DNA from: a virus
IMG/VR virus record: IMGVR_UViG_3300043429_000913
Location: 1 to 29,367 of that record
Length of the DNA stretch: 29,367 bases
Reading direction: 5' to 3' (one strand)
The notes beneath the pieces are model-generated. The model was not told the DNA's origin. It ran no database searches and saw only the letters and a list, made by a program, of their open reading frames with translations. Within the stretch, counting starts at the first letter, position 1; each line of letters starts with the position of its first letter. Shown here piece by piece: positions 8,662-20,972 of the stretch. A program made the position numbers and the translations under genes.

Positions 8662-9921
8662 ATGATCTTCAAGTCCTTCAAATATCGTTTGAATCCAACC
8701 GATGCCCAGGCCGAGCAAATGCGTCGGACGTTTGGTTGTAAGAGATTTGTGTTCAATAATCTGTTGAATCAACAACAGACCAGATATGAATCTGGCGAAG
8801 GACACTTGACCTATTTTCAATGTAACAATCTATTGGTTGATTGGAAGAAGCAAGAAGATCGTGATTTTTTGGCAGAAGTCGACAGTCAAGCCTTACAGCA
8901 AGCGGCCAAAGACCTACACGAATCCTATAGTAACTTCTTCAAGTCGTGTTCTGGTAAACGCAAAGGCAAGAAGTGCGGACATCCGAAATACAAAAGCAAA
9001 TATGCTCGTCAAAGTTACAGAACGCCGAATAACAACGATACAATAAAGATAACTGATAATAGCATCAGATTACCAAGATTGGGCTATGTGTCAGCGATAA
9101 TTGATAGATCAATTGAAGGTAGGATTAAATCTGCCACTGTCTCAATGGATCGAGACGGCAAGTATTATGTGTCCGTGTTGGCAGAAGTAGAACAGAGACT
9201 GAAGCCGATGACCGGAATGGAAGTTGGTATCGACTTGGGGATAAAGGATCTATTCGTCACGAGTGATGGTAATAGATTCAGCAATTCTAAAGATTTGATT
9301 CGTATGACAAAAACCAAGCATAGAATCAAAATATTACAAAAACAACTGGCTAAAAAGGTCAGTGGCGGCAACAACAGAGAAAAGACCAGAATGAAATTAG
9401 CCAGTGCGTTCAAGCGATTGACTAATCAACGAAATAATTATTATCACGAGATAAGTACTTGGTTAGTTGATACGTATGATGCTATTTACATGGAAGACTT
9501 GAATGTCGCTGGTATGATGAAAAATCGTCGATTATCAAGAGCAATTCGGGAATCTGCTTGGTCAACATTGACTGATATGATTGAATACAAATGTTCTTGG
9601 TACGGTAAAACATTCCACCGAATCAATCGATTCTACCCGTCAACTAAGACCTGTAGTTGTTGCGATTACAAAATAGAATCGCTGTCGTTATCTGTGCGTG
9701 AATGGACTTGTCCACAATGTGGCAGTCATCACGACAGAGATAATAACGCAGCCATCAATGTCCTGAGACAAGGACAGAGAGATTATTATGATACTTCGCT
9801 GGTCCGACGCGAAGCGGGCAACATTGTTGTTGTCCCGACGACTCTTATGAAACTGAGTGCTAAAATCGAGAGGTCTGATAGACTGAAATCAGTTGCTCGG
9901 GGAATGGAGTTAGTTTACTAA
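8662..9921 (+). CDS. tnpB: TnpB family RNA-guided nuclease (IS200/IS605 OrfB type)
   Basis: 419 residues, full length for TnpB. The N-terminus (FKYRLNPTDAQ, 6-16) is the family start. The RuvC site is intact: D191 in VGIDLGIKDL, E278 in YMEDL and D360 in HHDRDNNAA. A zinc ribbon has C331/C334 and C350/C353 (CSCC...CPQC). These positions nearly coincide with ISDra2 TnpB as I recall it, so an active nuclease is expected. TnpB uses an omega RNA from its own 3' end to cut next to a short TAM motif. No tnpA and no clear transposon ends are seen, so it is a solo copy wedged between the terminase and the next phage gene. It may act as a homing endonuclease. Base composition is not obviously foreign. 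Confidence 0.93.
   Translation: MIFKSFKYRLNPTDAQAEQMRRTFGCKRFVFNNLLNQQQTRYESGEGHLTYFQCNNLLVDWKKQEDRDFLAEVDSQALQQAAKDLHESYSNFFKSCSGKRKGKKCGHPKYKSKYARQSYRTPNNNDTIKITDNSIRLPRLGYVSAIIDRSIEGRIKSATVSMDRDGKYYVSVLAEVEQRLKPMTGMEVGIDLGIKDLFVTSDGNRFSNSKDLIRMTKTKHRIKILQKQLAKKVSGGNNREKTRMKLASAFKRLTNQRNNYYHEISTWLVDTYDAIYMEDLNVAGMMKNRRLSRAIRESAWSTLTDMIEYKCSWYGKTFHRINRFYPSTKTCSCCDYKIESLSLSVREWTCPQCGSHHDRDNNAAINVLRQGQRDYYDTSLVRREAGNIVVVPTTLMKLSAKIERSDRLKSVARGMELVY
9794..9921 (+). ncRNA. Candidate omega-RNA region in the 3' end of tnpB
   Basis: Two adjacent stems lie inside the tnpB coding end: CTTCGC/GCGAAG (9794-9799 with 9809-9814) and CGGGCAAC/GTTG-T-CCCG (9815-9822 with 9829-9837, one bulged T). A weaker CTGA/TCAG stem follows near 9880. 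TnpB guide RNAs are known to overlap the 3' end of the gene and continue into flanking DNA as the guide. Here the scaffold would end near the stop at 9921 and the guide would lie in the 17 bases before the next ATG. Boundaries are inferred. Confidence 0.35.
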
Positions 9922-11702: not shown

Positions 11703-11857
11703 AACCTTTTTGGTTGAAAACTTTGGCCGGATTCGCTATGGTCAAGTAAATACAAGCGTCCCCGCTCTGCGAAAGCATCGGGCTGAAGTCCATCCTAGTG
11801 ATGGCCAGTCGACACAGAGATGTTGGCTGTCTGACAAGACTCGACCTTTTTGGTTGA
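11703..11857 (+). ncRNA. Candidate structured RNA between direct repeats upstream of gp32
   Basis: No credible gene lies between 11665 and 11954. A 16-base direct repeat (ACCTTTTTGGTTGAAA) occurs at 11704-11719 and 11844-11859. Between the copies many short stems can form: CTTTGGCC with GGTCAAG (one bulge), TTCGC with GCGAA, CCATC with GATGG around CTAGT (11790-11804), GTCGA with TCGAC (11808-11812 with 11841-11845, followed by five T), and GGGC/GTCC around TGAA. Some compete. TAAATACAAG at 11747-11756 matches part of the tnpB-side promoter-like sequence. It may be an independent small RNA or the 5' part of the gp32 leader; it matches no RNA family I know. Confidence 0.4.
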
Positions 11858-11889
11858 AATACGTACCTCAACGTATTAAAATAATGAGG
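11858..11889 (+). promoter_or_regulatory. Predicted H-type RNA pseudoknot, gp32 autogenous operator
   Basis: Stem 1 pairs AATACGT (11858-11864) with ACGTATT (11871-11877). The enclosed loop CCTCA (11866-11870) pairs with TGAGG (11885-11889) as stem 2. Loop 1 is a single A, and the second crossing loop is seven A/T bases (11878-11884), lengths that suit a coaxial H-type knot. It lies 66 bases before the gp32 ATG, followed by an AU-rich open leader. T4 gp32 represses its own translation by nucleating on a pseudoknot of this layout and coating the downstream leader, so the same control is expected here. Confidence 0.75.
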
Positions 11890-11890
11890 C

Positions 11891-11950
11891 AGGCATCGTT
11901 TAAGTAAGGCATCTTTCTTAAATTTATTTTTAATTAACAATATAGGCATC
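11891..11950 (+). repeat. Three AGGCATC copies in the gp32 leader
   Basis: AGGCATC occurs at 11891-11897, 11907-11913 and 11944-11950 in an otherwise A/T-only leader, and GGCATC recurs at the start codon (11957-11962). The last copy holds the only AGG near the ATG and could be the ribosome-binding site. The others may be binding sites or decoy Shine-Dalgarno elements; function unknown. Confidence 0.55.
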
Positions 11951-11954
11951 AAAA

Positions 11955-12971
11955 ATGGCATCTTTGGCAGAAATCAGATCAAGATTGTCCGCGTCAGAAA
12001 ATCGCGGACAAAATTCAAACAACCAAATGGACAACACTCTTTATCCATTCTGGAACATTGACGAGGGCAAAAGCGCAACTATTCGCTTTTTGCCAGACGG
12101 CAATCCAAACAACACATTCTTTTGGGTAGAGCGAGCGATGATTCGCCTTGAATTCCCCGGTGTAAAGAATGGCGAAGAAAAGAAGGCAGTAACAGTGCGT
12201 GTTCCTTGTGTCGAGATGTGGGGCGATACGTGTCCTATTCTCACTGAGGTTCGCGCTTGGTTCAAGGATAAATCACTTGAAGAAATGGGACGCAAGTATT
12301 GGAAAAAGCGCGATTATCTATTCCAAGGTATCATTCGGGAAAATCCAATCATTGAAGAAAACGCACCAGAAAATCCTGTTCGTAGACTGATCATTGGTCC
12401 ACAGATTTTTAACATCGTAAAGTCAGCATTGATGGATCCAGAGTTGGATGAATTGCCAACCGATTATCAACGTGGTCTTGACTTTCGTGTAACCAAGGGA
12501 AGCAAAGGTGGCTATGCTGACTATAGCACCAGCACTTGGTCAAGGCGCGAATCTGCACTAACCGAACAAGAACAATCAGCCATTAAATCGCATGGTCTAT
12601 TTGATCTAGCTACATTCTTGCCCAAAAAGCCAAGTGAAGTAGAATTAAAAGTTATGACGGAAATGTTTGAGGCATCGGTTGATGGTCAACTATATGATAG
12701 TGAACGATGGGGGCAATATTTCCGGCCCGCTGGAATGGTCATCACTCAAAGCGGCGATTCATCATCTACTCCAAGTACCCCAAAGGTAGCACCAAAAGAA
12801 AAGGTTGAAGTAACATCAGAAGAAGACGATGCACCATTTGAATCATCGCCCACTCCTGTAAAAGTAACGTCGGTTAAAGCGCCGGAAGCTGAAGAAGCAC
12901 CAGTGGCATCTTCATCAAAGGCCGAGGACATTTTAAAACTGATAAGAATGCGACAGCAATCGGCGCAATAA
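11955..12971 (+). CDS. 32: Single-strand DNA-binding protein gp32
   Basis: 338 residues (T4: 301). gp32 coats ssDNA at the fork and in recombination and binds UvsX/UvsY partners. The N-terminus (ASLAEIRSRLSASENR) fits the cooperativity domain. The core reads LYPFWNIDEGKSATIRFLPDG (29-49), VPCVEMWGDTCPI (83-95) and YLFQGIIRENP (121-131), the pattern of gp32 in T4-like environmental phages. C85 and C93 lie where T4 has its zinc ligands, but the set seems incomplete. The C-terminus (265-325) is a disordered Ser/Pro/acidic tail for protein contacts, longer than in T4, ending in a short basic helix (ILKLIRMRQQ). The leader carries the predicted autoregulatory pseudoknot. Confidence 0.93.
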   Translation: MASLAEIRSRLSASENRGQNSNNQMDNTLYPFWNIDEGKSATIRFLPDGNPNNTFFWVERAMIRLEFPGVKNGEEKKAVTVRVPCVEMWGDTCPILTEVRAWFKDKSLEEMGRKYWKKRDYLFQGIIRENPIIEENAPENPVRRLIIGPQIFNIVKSALMDPELDELPTDYQRGLDFRVTKGSKGGYADYSTSTWSRRESALTEQEQSAIKSHGLFDLATFLPKKPSEVELKVMTEMFEASVDGQLYDSERWGQYFRPAGMVITQSGDSSSTPSTPKVAPKEKVEVTSEEDDAPFESSPTPVKVTSVKAPEAEEAPVASSSKAEDILKLIRMRQQSAQ

Positions 12972-12976
12972 GAAAA

Positions 12977-13873
12977 ATGCACAAGCCTTTCGTTTATGTT
13001 TGGATTCATTTATCAACGCAGCGTTGGTATATAGGGTCACGAACAGCGAAAGGCTGTCACCCAGATGATGGGTATATTACATCCAGCAAGATTGTTAATA
13101 AATTATTGACTATTGACACGCGAAGTGAATGGGTAAGAATTATATTGTTCATGGGAGATGTCAATGAGGTATTGGAATTAGAGACGAGGATACTTCGCAT
13201 ACTAGATGCAAAGAATGATACAAATAGCTTCAATAAGCACAACAATGACGGCATATCCGTGTGGGTTGGGGATAAAAATCCAATGAAAGATCCAGATGTT
13301 GTAAAACGTCAAAAGTCTGTGACGAGTGGAAAAAATCATTGGACAGCTAAACTGGGAGATAAAGAGCACCCACAAAAGGGACAGAAACGACCAACTATAT
13401 CGGGCATCAATCACCCCAATAAAAAGCCCGAAAATGCTGCTAAAATAAGTTTAGCCTTATCGGGAATACCAAAACCCAATATTAGGGGCGAAAATAATCC
13501 CATGCACAACGAGGTGAATAGACGTAAAGTATCCAAAGCACTAACAGGTAGAGAGAGAACCTCCTCGCACTCCAATAACATATCTAGGGCAAAGATCGGA
13601 ACAAAACAGCAAAAAGTTCCTTGTAAATTTTGCAGTAATTTGTTTGGGATTAGTAATGTAACAAAACATGAACAAGTATGTGTGATGAATATTGACATTG
13701 ATGACACACGATCAGTATCACATAATTCTATAAGAGTTCACACTCCAAAGGGATGGTTCAGTAGTATTGCAATCGCTGCTAGGGCATTGGGAATAGACCC
13801 AAGAACCATTAAAAGTAGAGTAAAATCACAAAATGTTGACAATAAAGATTATTATTATGAAAAACAAATTTAG
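12977..13873 (+). CDS. GIY-YIG homing endonuclease
   Basis: 298 residues. The GIY-YIG catalytic domain is at 5-80: VYVWIHL and RWYIG, SRTAKG, and LELETRIL with the metal-binding Glu at 70. The middle (95-210) repeats short NUMOD3-like units (GDKNPM, GKNHWT, GINHPN, GENNPM). A zinc finger follows (C216, C219, H231, C235). The end (258-283, KGWFSSIAIAARALGIDPRT) is a NUMOD1/IENR1-type DNA-binding helix-turn-helix. This full set resembles T4 Seg and I-TevI relatives. It is a free-standing gene between gp32 and uvsX, starting 5 bases after gp32 and with weak start signals. It should cut alleles lacking it and spread by recombination, which gp32 and UvsX themselves promote. Confidence 0.93.
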   Translation: MHKPFVYVWIHLSTQRWYIGSRTAKGCHPDDGYITSSKIVNKLLTIDTRSEWVRIILFMGDVNEVLELETRILRILDAKNDTNSFNKHNNDGISVWVGDKNPMKDPDVVKRQKSVTSGKNHWTAKLGDKEHPQKGQKRPTISGINHPNKKPENAAKISLALSGIPKPNIRGENNPMHNEVNRRKVSKALTGRERTSSHSNNISRAKIGTKQQKVPCKFCSNLFGISNVTKHEQVCVMNIDIDDTRSVSHNSIRVHTPKGWFSSIAIAARALGIDPRTIKSRVKSQNVDNKDYYYEKQI

Positions 13874-15900: not shown

Positions 15901-16332
15901 ATGAAGATTGATACAGATTTAATCAGTGAACTTAAAACACTATCCTTGACCAGCAATCACCCAAAAGTATGGGTAGCTGCCGCATTAGTTCATAGGGGGC
16001 GAGTTATATCCTATGGAGTGAATAACATGAAAACTCATCCATACCAACACAAGTATGGGCGTAACAACGAGTGTGTATATTGGCATGCTGAAACGCTTGC
16101 AATATACAATGCCGATAAAAAATTAGGATTTAGAAAGTTCAGTAAATCCGAGCTATATGTGGTCAGATTGAAGTATGATAGCTCGGATAAAATAAAACTG
16201 ATTCAAGGGTTAGCAAAACCGTGTCCTGGTTGTATGCGATGTATTGATGATTATTCAATACCGAGCATCATTTATACCTTGGACCATCATGAAAAATCCA
16301 CTGCACATTACGGAATAATGACATTAGATTGA
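15901..16332 (+). CDS. Cytidine/deoxycytidylate deaminase-family protein
   Basis: 143 residues from ATG 15901; an in-frame TTG at 15865 is rejected because it is the promoter -35 box. Zinc-site motifs are WHAETLAIYNA (H62, proton-shuttling E64) and KPCPGCMRC (C108, C111), the layout of the CMP/dCMP deaminase superfamily. T4 Cd is longer (193 residues) and has extra ligands, so this is a compact member and substrate is uncertain: dCMP for dTMP synthesis is usual in phages, but base or nucleic-acid deamination is not excluded. No Shine-Dalgarno lies at a working distance. The 3' end overlaps the convergent minus-strand gene by 9 bases. Confidence 0.8.
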   Translation: MKIDTDLISELKTLSLTSNHPKVWVAAALVHRGRVISYGVNNMKTHPYQHKYGRNNECVYWHAETLAIYNADKKLGFRKFSKSELYVVRLKYDSSDKIKLIQGLAKPCPGCMRCIDDYSIPSIIYTLDHHEKSTAHYGIMTLD

Positions 16333-17064
16333 AGGATTTTTTACATAGAACTTAGTTGTTGGGAAAACCTTTTTAAGATTGGTTGGTTGAATAACACCCG
16401 CTTCTCTTAAAATCTCATGAACAAAGGGTTGCAATCTATCAACGTAGTATCCATGCTTGTTCATAATGCTTACCCACATTGGTGCCCTTTGTTTAACAAT
16501 GTTTTTTTCTGACCACCAGCTTTCCATATGATGCGCTTTTTGTGAATTATCATAGCTCTCGGTAAATCCACGTTTAGCGTCAATCTTAAATGATTTTGGT
16601 GCATCAACGAAATATCTTGATACCAACTGATTAACGTCAGTCATCAACGTGCCTGTGTTGTATTTTCCAGTGAAATCGTTGATTATACACGGTACTTTTA
16701 TATTATATTTTTGCGCTACCCACAATCTTGAACCACCGGTTACACCTTCAAGCAATAACCATCGTTCTTTTGGCAATCTCGTAATCTCTGGTGGTAGGTT
16801 GGATATCTTGCATCGTTTTGGCTCACCGCAAGTTACGATCAATGGATTTCTGAAGCCTTCTTTAAGGACACTTTTTTCTAGCTTATCGTAGTGACCGCAG
16901 ATTTTGTTCAATCCTTCTTCATATTCACGCATGATTTTTTCGCGAGCAATCCTTCCCCTTGGTGACCAATCTTCCCAAACTGTATTATACCCACCACCAC
17001 AACGACCTACCATTCCAAAAATGGTGGTTGGGTCTATCACGTCGTAAAAAACTCTGACTGACAT
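16324..17064 (-). CDS. ParB/sulfiredoxin-like domain protein
   Basis: 246 residues from the ATG at 17064, which overlaps the previous stop (TAATG) and has GGAGAG just upstream; the longer frame from 17118 is unlikely. Residues 66-130 show the ParB-N/Srx pattern: a helix, LKEGFRNPLIVTCG, WLLLEGVTGGSRLWVAQ and IKVPCIINDF. The rest, including a KAHHMESWW stretch, is unassigned. Such domains occur in phage nucleases and in ATP-using or DNA-binding proteins. It is last in the glycan cassette, coupled to a glycosyltransferase, so it may instead act on a small-molecule or glycan substrate. Function uncertain. Confidence 0.65.
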   Translation of the reverse strand: MSVRVFYDVIDPTTIFGMVGRCGGGYNTVWEDWSPRGRIAREKIMREYEEGLNKICGHYDKLEKSVLKEGFRNPLIVTCGEPKRCKISNLPPEITRLPKERWLLLEGVTGGSRLWVAQKYNIKVPCIINDFTGKYNTGTLMTDVNQLVSRYFVDAPKSFKIDAKRGFTESYDNSQKAHHMESWWSEKNIVKQRAPMWVSIMNKHGYYVDRLQPFVHEILREAGVIQPTNLKKVFPTTKFYVKNPSI

Positions 17065-17762
17065 TAATCTCTCCAGTAATCTAAAACCCACGGTTGAGGC
17101 GTGAGGTCGAATTTCCATATTCTTTCATTTATATGTACAGATTCGGGTATTGATGGTCTGCCATGATAGCAAACAATTGCTGCATTTTTTGGCAATCCTT
17201 CTCTACAGTGTACTTTGAAGCTAACCACTCTATTTGGTAAAATCTCTTGCCAATAAAATCTATCGCTTACGCAGTGATCAATCCAATGTTGGTCGCCATG
17301 TGGGTGTACCAATTCAACCGCTGCACTTGGGTTCTTTGTGAACTCTGTCCAAATATGTTCATATTCGCCATGCCTCCACATCATTAGTCCAGAACCCATT
17401 TCACCAGCAGTCCTTGCGATACCATTCAAAAAATCTCTCAATACTGTGATTTTATTTGCGGGTTGTTGTAATAGATCATCAATGTTGTCGGTTATTAGAG
17501 TATCAAGATCAACATAAAAGATTTTATCTCCTTTGGGAATGAGGATCTCGTTGCTGAACAAGTAGAGTTTATTCCACCATGATTGGAGGTTGGTGTATGG
17601 CAAATCATGTGCAAAGACGTTAGAATTCAAATCACTTGAATCCTCTGTAAAGCAATGAAAACTAAATGACAATGTAGTATTACGCTTAATTGAAGCATAT
17701 AGCTTGTTGACGTAATCTGCGTTGTATTTGTCGCCCCATTTTAAACAGACTATGTTGATCAT
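17064..17762 (-). CDS. Glycosyltransferase, GT-A fold (family 8-like)
   Basis: 232 residues from ATG 17762, which overlaps the methyltransferase stop (ATGA) with GGAAGG upstream. The N-terminus INIVCLKWGDKYNADYVNKLYASI is a nucleotide-sugar-binding start, and KIFYVDLDTLITDNID (about 80-95) carries the metal-binding DxD motif. MGSGLMMWRHG and HPHGDQHWIDH follow the usual acceptor-site order. It resembles the plus-strand protein at 21020-21733 in layout and motifs, so the two are probably paralogues. It is likely to add a sugar to a lipopolysaccharide or virion glycan. Confidence 0.85.
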   Translation of the reverse strand: MINIVCLKWGDKYNADYVNKLYASIKRNTTLSFSFHCFTEDSSDLNSNVFAHDLPYTNLQSWWNKLYLFSNEILIPKGDKIFYVDLDTLITDNIDDLLQQPANKITVLRDFLNGIARTAGEMGSGLMMWRHGEYEHIWTEFTKNPSAAVELVHPHGDQHWIDHCVSDRFYWQEILPNRVVSFKVHCREGLPKNAAIVCYHGRPSIPESVHINERIWKFDLTPQPWVLDYWRD

Positions 17763-18391
17763 GCTTCCTTCCATCTCCAATTTGAAAGAATATCAGCTGG
17801 GCATCTTCCTGTTTCTTTTAATGATGTTTTCATTACTTCTGGGTAATCATTGTCGCCGTTTTTTGTGACTCTTATACGAAGTTGTCCTGCAAGTGCCCAC
17901 ACTCTGGCATCAGCTACTGCAAATCCACACCTCTTTAAAACATCAATCAACTGTCCTGCTTGAAAATTGTGAATATGCCCTGGTGAAAATACACTATGCG
18001 ATGCCATATTTGGGCAAGCCATCCACATATACCCATCATCGCTAAGAAGTGAGTGAATAGTTCGCAGAAATTCAAAACAGTCTTCGACGTGTTCAATGAC
18101 ATGATGATGCCAAATTAAATCATATTTCGTGTTTTTCGTTAAGATGTCATCCCAAGATGAGAAGAAATCCACTGGTATACCTTGTAAGTATATTGGTTTT
18201 GGTATATCGTTTACTTTTCTCAAATCAATATCCAAAGCGTCTACTAATTTTGCTCCTCTTTTTATGAATTCCGAAGAAGCATATCCGTGGCCGCAACCTA
18301 TATCTAAAATGGTTTTGTTTTCAATGAATGGATTTGCGTCAAATGAATTTAGAAAAACGTCGGTATGGTTGTCTTGTGCTGTTTTTTCCAT
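17759..18391 (-). CDS. Class I SAM-dependent methyltransferase
   Basis: 210 residues. Motif I ILDIGCGHGYAS (28-39) binds SAM, the acidic VDALDIDLR (49-57) follows, and YDLIWHHHVIEHVEDCFEFL (about 89-108) is the post-II motif of Methyltransf_11/23-type enzymes. AGQLIDVLKRCGF fits the late helix. No DNA-methylase NPPY or cytosine motif is present, so a small-molecule or sugar target is favoured. It is coupled to the glycosyltransferase after it (4-base overlap) and follows the GT2 gene by 7 bases. Confidence 0.87.
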   Translation of the reverse strand: MEKTAQDNHTDVFLNSFDANPFIENKTILDIGCGHGYASSEFIKRGAKLVDALDIDLRKVNDIPKPIYLQGIPVDFFSSWDDILTKNTKYDLIWHHHVIEHVEDCFEFLRTIHSLLSDDGYMWMACPNMASHSVFSPGHIHNFQAGQLIDVLKRCGFAVADARVWALAGQLRIRVTKNGDNDYPEVMKTSLKETGRCPADILSNWRWKEA

Positions 18392-18398
18392 AACTAAG

Positions 18399-19178
18399 TT
18401 ACTGTATTAAATTGTTATTCGGTGCGGTTATTAGACCTGTTATCTTTGTCTCGTGAGACAACTGTGTGTTTTGAGTAGTTGGTATATTATGACTATAAGA
18501 TACCGAAGCATCTTTTGGGTGCCATTGGTGAACTACGAATGGACTTGAAACAAATTTTATGTTCAATCCCAAATTTTGCACTCTATAAAGAAATTCAACA
18601 TCATCGGAACCTCTTCCGTGTGCAAATCTTTCATCGAATCCATTGAGTTTTATTAAATTGTTTCTGGTAATAGCTGATGTAAAATGCCAAGCACATGGCC
18701 TTAGCTCGTCATGTACGTACCAACAATTTCCAGCTGACGACACCTTGTTTGGGTTACTGGTGTCAATCTCGCCAGTTTGCCTAAGAATCTCAGACTGACT
18801 CTTGTCTCCGGCGAAACAATGAAACGCAAGATAATTATTATCTGATAGATGATCCATCGTGTATTGAATAACATCTCCCATGTGGCAACACTCTGGGTTT
18901 TGAATGATGATCTTGTCGCCTTGGGACTCACGAAATCCTACGTTGAATGGAATGCAAGGGTTGAAATATGTCTTAGACTTATAAATATTTGACATTTTAA
19001 TTACATGGATATTCAATGATGGGAATTCATCGATTATGGAATCCAGAGAATGTTCCTGTTCACTAAAATCATCCACTATTATTACTTCAATTTGGTCGTG
19101 TTTATACGAGCACAGTGACTTTAAGCTGTAACGAAGTTGTGTTACCCTGTTATAATAAGTCATAACAATAGAAATCAT
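18399..19178 (-). CDS. Family 2 glycosyltransferase
   Basis: 259 residues from ATG 19178; a GTG five codons upstream (19193) would overlap the previous gene. The GT2 start MISIVMTYYNRVTQLRYSLKSL, VEVIIVDDFS-type segment (IEVIIVDDFSEQ, about 30-41), a hydrophobic IQNPECCHMGDV block (90-101) in place of a standard DxD, and LNGFDERFAHGRGSDDVEFLYR (about 183-204, the ED-like acceptor/catalytic region) are clear. It likely transfers a sugar in surface polysaccharide assembly. Neighbouring methyltransferases could cap or decorate the product. Confidence 0.9.
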   Translation of the reverse strand: MISIVMTYYNRVTQLRYSLKSLCSYKHDQIEVIIVDDFSEQEHSLDSIIDEFPSLNIHVIKMSNIYKSKTYFNPCIPFNVGFRESQGDKIIIQNPECCHMGDVIQYTMDHLSDNNYLAFHCFAGDKSQSEILRQTGEIDTSNPNKVSSAGNCWYVHDELRPCAWHFTSAITRNNLIKLNGFDERFAHGRGSDDVEFLYRVQNLGLNIKFVSSPFVVHQWHPKDASVSYSHNIPTTQNTQLSHETKITGLITAPNNNLIQ

Positions 19179-19183
19179 CTTTG

Positions 19184-19732
19184 TTATTCGCACTTAAAAA
19201 TAAAAAATCTGCCATTGGGCAATTCATTCAACACCACAACAGAGGAGTAAAATTGACTCAGTTTGTTATTCCACCACAACAAATCTTCTTGTATTAGATG
19301 AAGCTCTTGTCCAAGAATAACATCAGAATGATTTGCAATTCCCAGAATAGAGGACCTACCGATTCGTTTAATATTTTCGATCATCAAATCGATATTTTTG
19401 TATTCGATATGCTCTAATACATCCATACACACACACAAGTCAAATTGCTGATCTACGAAAATTGAATTTGTTGTTAAAAAATCTGCATTGACGTGGGGCA
19501 CGTCGCATAAAAATTCCTTACAACAAACGTCAGAGAATTCAATTCCGAGAGTGCTACTGTACCCTTCGGAGATGATCTTCCTAATGTAATGACCCTTGCC
19601 GCACCCAATGTCTATTATTTTTGAACTCTTGGCTAGTTTTCTAATTTCTAATAGCACAACCTCAAGTTTGTAGTCGTAGCTGTTGTTATATCTTTTATTG
19701 TTTTGGTAAATGTTGTTGTATATTTCTTTCAT
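19184..19732 (-). CDS. SAM-dependent methyltransferase
   Basis: 182 residues. Motif I is KIIDIGCGKGHYIRK (38-52), then STLGIEFSDVCC, and FDLCVCMDVLEHIEY (about 97-111) is motif post-I/II of class I enzymes. The start ATG lies 11 bases after the preceding stop. The sequence ends at FIFKCE without an extra domain. It differs from the other methyltransferase in this cassette, so the two probably act on different positions or substrates. No DNA-methyltransferase catalytic motif is seen. Confidence 0.85.
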   Translation of the reverse strand: MKEIYNNIYQNNKRYNNSYDYKLEVVLLEIRKLAKSSKIIDIGCGKGHYIRKIISEGYSSTLGIEFSDVCCKEFLCDVPHVNADFLTTNSIFVDQQFDLCVCMDVLEHIEYKNIDLMIENIKRIGRSSILGIANHSDVILGQELHLIQEDLLWWNNKLSQFYSSVVVLNELPNGRFFIFKCE

Positions 19733-19743
19733 GGTGATCGTTA

Positions 19744-20214
19744 TTAAGTCGTTATCGTCTCTGTTTTAAGCCATTCCATAGAAGCCAAGTATTCTACACT
19801 CGCTTTCTTTAATACAAAATCATTCAGTTTTCTGTGAGGAAATCGTTCGCAATTCCATATTATAATGGTAGGATTATCTATATCACAGTTATAAAACTGA
19901 ATGTCACTGTTCATTGAGCGAAAAGCCCATACTTGGCGAATACTATGATGTAATCTCACTGATTCGTTTAAGTATATTGCTTGTCCTCTAAATTTCATCA
20001 ATATGGGTATCAAAAACATAGAGTAATTGATGTCATTGCCAAGCACAGAAGAACAGTAACTATTTATCAGTGTTTTTGGTAGAGGAATATAATTAACCAA
20101 TCCCGGGTTGTATAAGGCAATTGATCGCACACACTCTACAAATAACTCTGGACGATTAATATCATAATCAATGTAGATGGGAATGATGTCATCATCTTCT
20201 GGCTTCAATCTCAT
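19744..20214 (-). CDS. GT-A-like protein without a visible DxD (degenerate glycosyltransferase)
   Basis: 156 residues; ATG overlaps the previous stop (ATGA) with CAGGA just upstream. The N-terminus IPIYIDYDINRPELFVECVRSIALYNP looks like a nucleotide-sugar-binding strand and helix, and FLIPILMKFRGQAIYLNESVRLHHSIRQVW (about 66-96) aligns by pattern with the segment that holds the DxD in related proteins. Here it reads YLNES. It is also shorter than full GT-A enzymes. It may be inactive, a partner of another transferase, or a divergent enzyme. Motif reading is by eye. Confidence 0.6.
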   Translation of the reverse strand: MRLKPEDDDIIPIYIDYDINRPELFVECVRSIALYNPGLVNYIPLPKTLINSYCSSVLGNDINYSMFLIPILMKFRGQAIYLNESVRLHHSIRQVWAFRSMNSDIQFYNCDIDNPTIIIWNCERFPHRKLNDFVLKKASVEYLASMEWLKTETITT

Positions 20215-20972
20215 TTCCTGATAATATCCTCTTCAATGCACTGCTCACCGTATTGAATTTCAACAATTCTGCACGGCTCATCAAACGGATTGCGTAACTG
20301 ATGCCAAGAACCTTGTTTTATTTTAGTTTCAGAATGATGATATAATACGGTGGTTAGATATTCTGAATTGATGGGGTGATAAGAATAAACCTCGCATTTT
20401 CCCTCTGATACTATCCAATATTCTGAACGATGATTGTGCATTTGCATTGATAGGCTACAGCCGGGATTTACTGTGAGTTCTTTTACTTTCATACCGGGTA
20501 CATCATGCAACACTCTGTAACAGCCCCATACTCGCTCGGTTTTTGGCGATTTCCACTCAGTCAAAATCCAACTGCTTGAATTTGCCTTGTTTGAACCACC
20601 TACGCCAAATTCAAACTTAACACGATCATCATTGATGGACATCTCTGGAATATTATCAGATGTTCTATCGCCACCGTTAACAAAAATAATTTCATCATCG
20701 GGGTAAAGATTCAGTAAATGCCGAATCGCTCCGATTGCGCTATTATCATCATCGTTAAATTCAAATGCTAAATCAACACATTTAATGTTGCTCACTAATG
20801 CCAATCGTTCTGAGATTGGCATAAATGATCTTCCTTTTTTTCTGGTTAACCATGCGTCTGAATTAACACCGACAGCCAAAATGTCGCCATAAGTTTTTGC
20901 TGCATTAAAGCATTCAAGGTGTCCACTATGAAGAGGATCAAATCCTCCAGTTGCTAGCACTATCTTTTTCAT
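20211..20972 (-). CDS. Nucleotidyltransferase-cupin fusion (cytidylyltransferase plus mannose-6-phosphate isomerase-like)
   Basis: 253 residues. Residues 1-135 are a RfaE/TagD-type nucleotidyltransferase: LATGGFDPLHSGH (6-18, the HxGH site), SDAWLTRKKG (38-47) and ISERLALV (53-60). It would join a nucleotide to a sugar- or alcohol-phosphate. Residues 146-245 are a cupin of the type II phosphomannose isomerase kind: ERVWGCYRVL (146-155), VKELTVNPG, MQMHNHRSEYWIVSEG (176-191, metal His and Glu) and SWHQLRNPF. The two halves could prepare an activated sugar for the glycosyltransferases downstream. It is the first gene of the minus-strand cassette and has no clear Shine-Dalgarno. Confidence 0.85.
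   Translation of the reverse strand: MKKIVLATGGFDPLHSGHLECFNAAKTYGDILAVGVNSDAWLTRKKGRSFMPISERLALVSNIKCVDLAFEFNDDDNSAIGAIRHLLNLYPDDEIIFVNGGDRTSDNIPEMSINDDRVKFEFGVGGSNKANSSSWILTEWKSPKTERVWGCYRVLHDVPGMKVKELTVNPGCSLSMQMHNHRSEYWIVSEGKCEVYSYHPINSEYLTTVLYHHSETKIKQGSWHQLRNPFDEPCRIVEIQYGEQCIEEDIIRK

Follow-up and report, generated by a model that had tools for sequence, protein, structure and literature searches.

The operator of bacteriophage T4 gene 32 is a textbook example of autogenous translational control, and the pseudoknots of T2/T4 type have stems of about 5 and 7 bp. In RB69 and T4, the knot ahead of the gp32 gene is read by gp32 itself (PMC535899). RNase E processing of the T4 gene 32 mRNA, at a point shortly before the knot region, stabilises the message (PMC2988022, PMC3014915), and the reading frame of the neighbouring T4 segG gene overlaps the 5′ part of the knot (PMC535899, PMC2988022). 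RB49 has no evident knot, and study of diverse T4-related phages has been urged in a review (PMC535899, PMC3014915); how far the gp32 operator has spread beyond close relatives of T4 had been an open question. For jumbo phages, PMC5259590 gives ATAAATA as the predicted late promoter of CBB and GAP32 and places TATA-type promoters near the DNA-synthesis genes of related phages.

A gp32 homologue preceded by an RNA pseudoknot

The window, by which we mean the whole stretch of 29,367 nucleotides analysed here, is a 29.4-kb IMG/VR virus fragment that carries genes for terminase, a gp32-type single-stranded DNA-binding protein (SSB), UvsX and UvsY; the phage is jumbo-type. The SSB (338 amino acids, positions 11955–12971, plus strand) matches phrog_1192 with an E value of 2e-62, and its family profile matches the T4 and RB69 gp32 entries of the PDB with E values of 5e-6 to 9e-5, while a Pfam search of the protein returned no family at E 0.001. 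Its AlphaFold2 model, which had a pLDDT of 33 when predicted from the single sequence and of 70 with a 29-row alignment, matched only gp32 chains with a probability of 1.00, six of them in all (8gme, 1gpc, 2a1k and 2atq included). The gene downstream of the leader, called gp32 from its letters alone in an earlier sequence-only reading, is thus a genuine homologue of T4 and RB69 gp32 by both profile and fold. Its named relatives belong to jumbo phages such as PA5oct/Ettore, GAP32 and PBECO4. Elsewhere in the window, a TnpB/OrfB-type gene of the IS605 family (8662–9921) lies between the terminase and virion genes, and a run of genes on the minus strand (16324–20972) appears, from inspection of the ORF list by eye, to be glycosyltransferase-, methyltransferase- and nucleotidyltransferase-like.

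The plus-strand leader of the SSB gene contains an H-type RNA pseudoknot at 11858–11889. Stem S1 consists of seven Watson–Crick pairs between AATACGT (11858–11864) and ACGTATT (11871–11877), and stem S2 of five pairs between CCTCA (11866–11870) and TGAGG (11885–11889). The connecting loops are L1, a single A at 11865, and L3, AAAATAA at 11878–11884; the knot ends 65 nucleotides short of the ATG at 11955. The sequence-only reading had described exactly these letters and this geometry. On both strands of the window, this is the sole H-type knot at the scan thresholds (Watson–Crick pairs only, S1 of at least 6 bp, S2 of at least 5 bp, L1 of 0–2 and L3 of 5–9 nucleotides). No such knot arose in 10 Markov copies of the window, and 0.1–0.2% of 3000 Markov leaders had one. 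An intrinsic terminator was rejected, as S1 is followed by AAAATAA and the arrangement is not a G+C-rich hairpin with a U-run. The Rfam search gave no family at or near the gathering score for the knot leader, DNA similarity searches of phage records with the leader returned short A/T-rich matches only, and a search of the open-access literature turned up no earlier account of a pseudoknot in gp32 leaders of this clade.

Matched changes in both stems

The nearest relative, L001, differs from the window at 10 positions of the 251-nt leader (11704–11954), seven of which fall within the 32-nt knot. Six of the seven make up three complete compensatory pairs that are found in both stems: A-T to C-G at 11859/11876, C-G to T-A at 11869/11886, and A-T to G-C at 11870/11885. 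The seventh, T to G at 11864, removes the innermost S1 pair and leaves L001 with an S1 of 6 bp. Three compensated pairs appeared in none of 400,000 simulations with 10 random substitutions, and with a frequency of 5.5e-5 when seven changes were forced inside the knot.

The knot module is present in 52 distinct related leaders at about −95 from the ATG. These were chosen by the TAWAAT box at that position and not by pairing; L187, L357, L359 and L361, which have the box at the same place but lack the knot, were left out of the group. The knot leaders display 24 combinations of stem sequences, in which 240 of 252 cells are Watson–Crick when the best-pairing register is used for each leader. A structure-blind alignment of 23 distinct knots gives a covariation score of 0.389, compared with 0.130 in shuffled alignments (0/500) and with 0.134 or less when the partners are slid; kinship inflates the shuffle test, and the L001 comparison is independent of it. 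S2 arms pair perfectly with their own counterparts in 27 of 34 cases, as opposed to 5.8% when arms are swapped between classes. The stems contain five G·U and three A·C cells, too few to separate RNA from DNA. Finally, 51 of the 91 leaders with a −10-like box carry a superimposed knot, against 1.25% with shuffled flanks. The Markov leaders, the L001 simulations and these box-superimposed counts together rule out a chance origin.

The covariation that the sequence-only reading had proposed to look for in related gp32 leaders is thus present in both stems, as seen in the L001 pairs, the alignment score and the S2 swaps, and the structure is thereby shown to be conserved across dozens of related leaders. 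Since the letters have changed in matched pairs across dozens of viruses, the element is a real functional RNA; on the evidence of this covariation, the H-type pseudoknot at 11858–11889 is real and under selection.

The knot is confined to the gp32 leader

A covariance model of the knot was run on 18 large records. Twelve of the 13 knot-bearing records contain a single strong copy, at gp32, and the thirteenth, L118, contains one on either side of a homing-endonuclease gene. Four records of 300–342 kb with the other leader type gave no match at E ≤ 0.1, and the knot is the only strong match in the window. The training set included the window and its relatives in part, so the matches themselves are expected and the absence elsewhere is the informative part. 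The element is confined to the gp32 leader.

A partly structured leader with AGGCATC repeats

The leader downstream of the knot had been described as A/T-rich and open. It is A/T-rich, but not fully open, as a second hairpin of 7 bp (GTTTAAG/CTTAAAT) is predicted at 11898–11923 on the plus strand. The loop of this hairpin holds one of three copies of AGGCATC, which begin at 11891, 11907 and 11944 (11891–11950, plus strand). The copy at 11944 occupies the Shine–Dalgarno position, and a fourth GGCATC (11957) overlaps the start codon. AGGCAAC, of which AGGCATC is the window's version, has a density of 8.1 per kb in the gp32 leaders of the knot group and of 0.35 elsewhere. There are two to three copies of AGGCAAC or AGGCATC per leader in relatives, and the rest of the genome pieces is almost free of the motif. 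The repeats may be SSB-binding or ribosome-related. UUAAA occurs 1.44 times per leader against 0.52 expected, a count to which the second hairpin itself contributes. A hairpin of at least 5 bp is present in 43 of 43 leaders and in 64% of shuffles, and one of at least 6 bp in 33 of 43 compared with 29%; these counts and the fold predicted for the window speak against a leader that is open throughout.

On the other side of the knot, the window has a single copy of a structured segment (11704–11859, about 157 nt) bounded by a 16-bp repeat, ACCTTTTTGGTTGAAA. In L001 the segment occurs twice (1101–1270 and 1750–1908) and flanks an insert of about 480 nt, whose short ORFs of unknown function have the segment as their leader.

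Promoter-like signals overlap the knot

Signals resembling a bipartite promoter coincide with the knot. A −35-like hexamer, TTGAAA (11854–11859, plus strand), shares its last two bases with the first two of S1, and 17 nt further on, a spacing kept in most relatives, a −10-like box, TAAAAT (11877–11882, plus strand), is made up of the last S1 base and the first five bases of L3. TAWAAT is found at the S1/L3 junction of all knot leaders, as TATAAT or TAAAAT; a weak hexamer (TAGGAA, TAGTAA, TTGTAA) is usually present 17 nt upstream, and in the L403-type and L518 leaders the hexamer is a full TTGACA. A σ70-like promoter, TTGAAA-N17-TAAAAT, is therefore likely to overlap the knot, as read from these motifs, and because of the overlap RNA starting there, near the 3′ arm of S2, would lack the knot. 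Further upstream, ATAAATA is present in 38 of the 52 knot leaders (10% expected), with most knots 50–100 nt downstream of it. The only ATAAATA-like element upstream of the knot in the window is AGTAAATAC (11745–11753, plus strand), a weak look-alike whose assignment as a late promoter is doubtful.

Leader exchange and endonuclease genes

In many close relatives, a long stem-loop takes the place of the knot in the gp32 leader. These leaders fold with a mean of −21.7 kcal/mol in the sense and −16.5 kcal/mol in the antisense orientation, the sense strand being favoured in 80 of 96. Consensus folding of these leaders yielded the inner stem alone, probably owing to displacement of the outer arms in the alignment. 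About 96 relatives (e.g. L008, L019 and L095) have TTGACA-N17-TAYACT inside a stem-loop of about 60 nt just after ATAAATA. A U-run follows many of the stem-loops, which may also serve as terminators for late RNA. On the gp32 tree, knot and stem-loop leaders alternate even between closely similar sequences, which implies that leaders have been exchanged.

A second, marine lineage (L403, L408, L435, L444, L445 and L518) has knots with an S1 of 5 bp and an S2 of 7–8 bp, stem lengths nearer those of T4, and these knots lie on a full TTGACA/TATAAT promoter. In marine relatives (e.g. L447 and L465), the promoter is followed by a conserved TGTGCTAC and, downstream, by GGCAC/GCACA repeats; pairing between the two, noted by eye, is a possible alternative leader fold. 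A separate knot considered for the leader of Pseudomonas phage Ettore/PA5oct (L354), formed by AGTTTTGC..GCAAAACT and CTAACCC/GGGTTTAG with one bulge, was noticed solely on visual inspection and set aside: the no-bulge scanner gave no match to it, and a scan for relatives of this candidate yielded no usable set.

At nine loci, a GIY-YIG-like endonuclease gene directly precedes gp32, with a reading frame that enters the knot or extends across it; insertion of the endonuclease gene leaves a knot ahead of gp32. In L118, the endonuclease gene comes after an older knot with its leader, and a second knot precedes gp32. Both L118 knots (688–724 and 1399–1444) are complete and flank the GIY-YIG-like gene, whose own leader is of the gp32 type. 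In the window, a homing-endonuclease gene (12977–13873) lies directly after gp32 and before uvsX.

Proposed function of the knot

As far as sequence can establish it, the knot is a cis-acting RNA element on the gp32 mRNA. We assign a probability of about 0.5 to the reading that it is the operator for autogenous repression of gp32. By this mechanism, the 5′ leader of the gp32 mRNA would fold into the H-type pseudoknot and control gp32 in cis. SSB present above the level of free single-stranded DNA would nucleate on the knot and then coat the A/U-rich leader, with its AGGCATC repeats, as far as the ribosome site, and the coated leader would block the protein's own translation. The knot would be carried only by RNAs that start upstream, from a late ATAAATA-type promoter or by read-through, because the σ70-like promoter overlaps the knot and would start RNA near its 3′ end. 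We infer both translational repression by gp32 and gp32 as the ligand, the latter from (i) the T4/RB69 precedent, (ii) the homology of the proteins, (iii) the position of the knot and (iv) its gene specificity. Counted against an operator are the knotless close relatives of gp32, the superimposed promoter boxes, the weak late-promoter motif of the window and the partly structured leader.

It is possible, although we regard it as unlikely, that the knot is a 5′-UTR element of stability or processing, an mRNA shield or mature 5′ end that does not bind gp32, with the long stem-loop doing the same job. The first paired base of the stem-loop lies 0–5 nt after ATAAATA in 66 of 72 leaders, as does the start of the structure in 30 of 36 of their marine relatives, and this is the expected 5′ end of the late mRNA; knot and stem-loop substitute for each other among close relatives; and the T4 gene 32 mRNA is itself stabilised by an RNase E cut upstream of its knot (PMC2988022, PMC3014915). 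However, most knots are 50–100 nt past ATAAATA and thus away from the 5′ end, a plain hairpin would be enough for protection, yet the interleaved topology is retained, and the knot is gp32-specific. That specificity would also agree with a ligand such as the ribosome, a ribosomal protein or another phage protein, through which the knot would tune gp32 translation or transcription in the absence of feedback. The sequence does not name the ligand, but this reading is improbable in view of the homologous proteins and of the T4/RB69 precedent, in which gp32 reads the knot (PMC535899).

A mainly DNA-level element, in which a transcription factor or RNA polymerase reads the promoter and overlapping repeats and the RNA fold is incidental, is very improbable. 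The invariable TAWAAT box with its hexamer usually 17 nt upstream, the full TTGACA of the L403-type and L518 leaders, and the TATA-type promoters near DNA-synthesis genes of related jumbo phages (PMC5259590) agree with it, and the five G·U and three A·C cells do not tell RNA from DNA. On the other hand, two interleaved stems do not form one cruciform and would be an odd operator, matched changes and ever-new sequences in both stems fit a single-strand fold and not a factor with a fixed site, and the neighbouring stem-loop class is biased towards the sense strand. That the knot is conserved as coding sequence, with the 3′ part of an endonuclease frame continuing across it (V.NTD..VYNN), is hardly credible: such read-through is real in nine relatives, but about 40 knot leaders, the window's included, have no gene of this kind crossing the knot, the genetic code does not demand compensatory pairing, and a coding tail as the source of the window knot is refuted by the lack of both the read-through gene and the peptide.

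Beyond the operator reading itself, we tentatively propose that in this clade the operator may be embedded in a promoter, the early gp32 promoter lying inside the knot or the long stem-loop, such that RNA started by host-type σ70 would lack the structure and late-promoter RNA would include it, with the mobile endonuclease gene spreading the module between phages. If so, a change of promoter alone would switch gp32 from unregulated early to self-repressed late expression. Through covariation, a knot in the gp32 leader is now shown for a distant clade of jumbo phages. Its dozens of natural variants are ready-made compensatory mutants, and the promoter overlap, the exchange of structures and the knots at endonuclease 3′ ends make the timing and spread of such operators testable.

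Comparison with known systems

CBB and GAP32, with promoters of the late ATAAATA and the TGAAACG..TATA class, resemble the present set in that ATAAATA lies upstream of many gp32 leaders and a TATAAT-type box precedes gp32, that of GAP32 included; the available part of PMC5259590 differs in describing promoter motifs only, with no overlapping RNA structure found there. The nine relatives with an endonuclease gene right before gp32, its end overlapping the gp32 control region, parallel T4 segG and other free-standing homing-endonuclease genes next to essential genes (PMC2988022), whereas the endonuclease gene of the window follows gp32 and L118 has complete knots on both sides. In T4 and in some relatives of the present set, likewise, a GIY-YIG endonuclease gene lies beside gene 32 with its frame touching the knot (PMC535899).

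The T4-like layout claimed by the sequence-only reading stands as regards the knot, its loop sizes and the two-part arrangement. As in T4, T2 and RB69, an H-type knot with loops of 1 and 7 nt is located ahead of gp32 (PMC535899), and downstream of it come an A/U-rich leader with UUAA(A), the ribosome site and the gene of a homologous protein; the position, an L1 of 0–2 nt, an L3 of 7–9 nt and the enrichment of UUAAA are shared with the T4/RB69 operator (PMC535899, PMC3014915). The claim falls short in other respects. The window stems are inverted (7+5 bp instead of about 5+7 bp in T4/T2), the knot shares no sequence with the T4 operator, a second hairpin and AGGCAWC repeats are present in the leader, and many close relatives of the window gp32 lack the knot. 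Furthermore, promoter-like boxes lie inside the window knot, whereas the T4 promoters are upstream within segG (PMC2988022). The knot is T4-operator-like as far as can be seen, but we do not count it among the proven members of that type; it is probably a distant counterpart of the T4 self-regulation switch.
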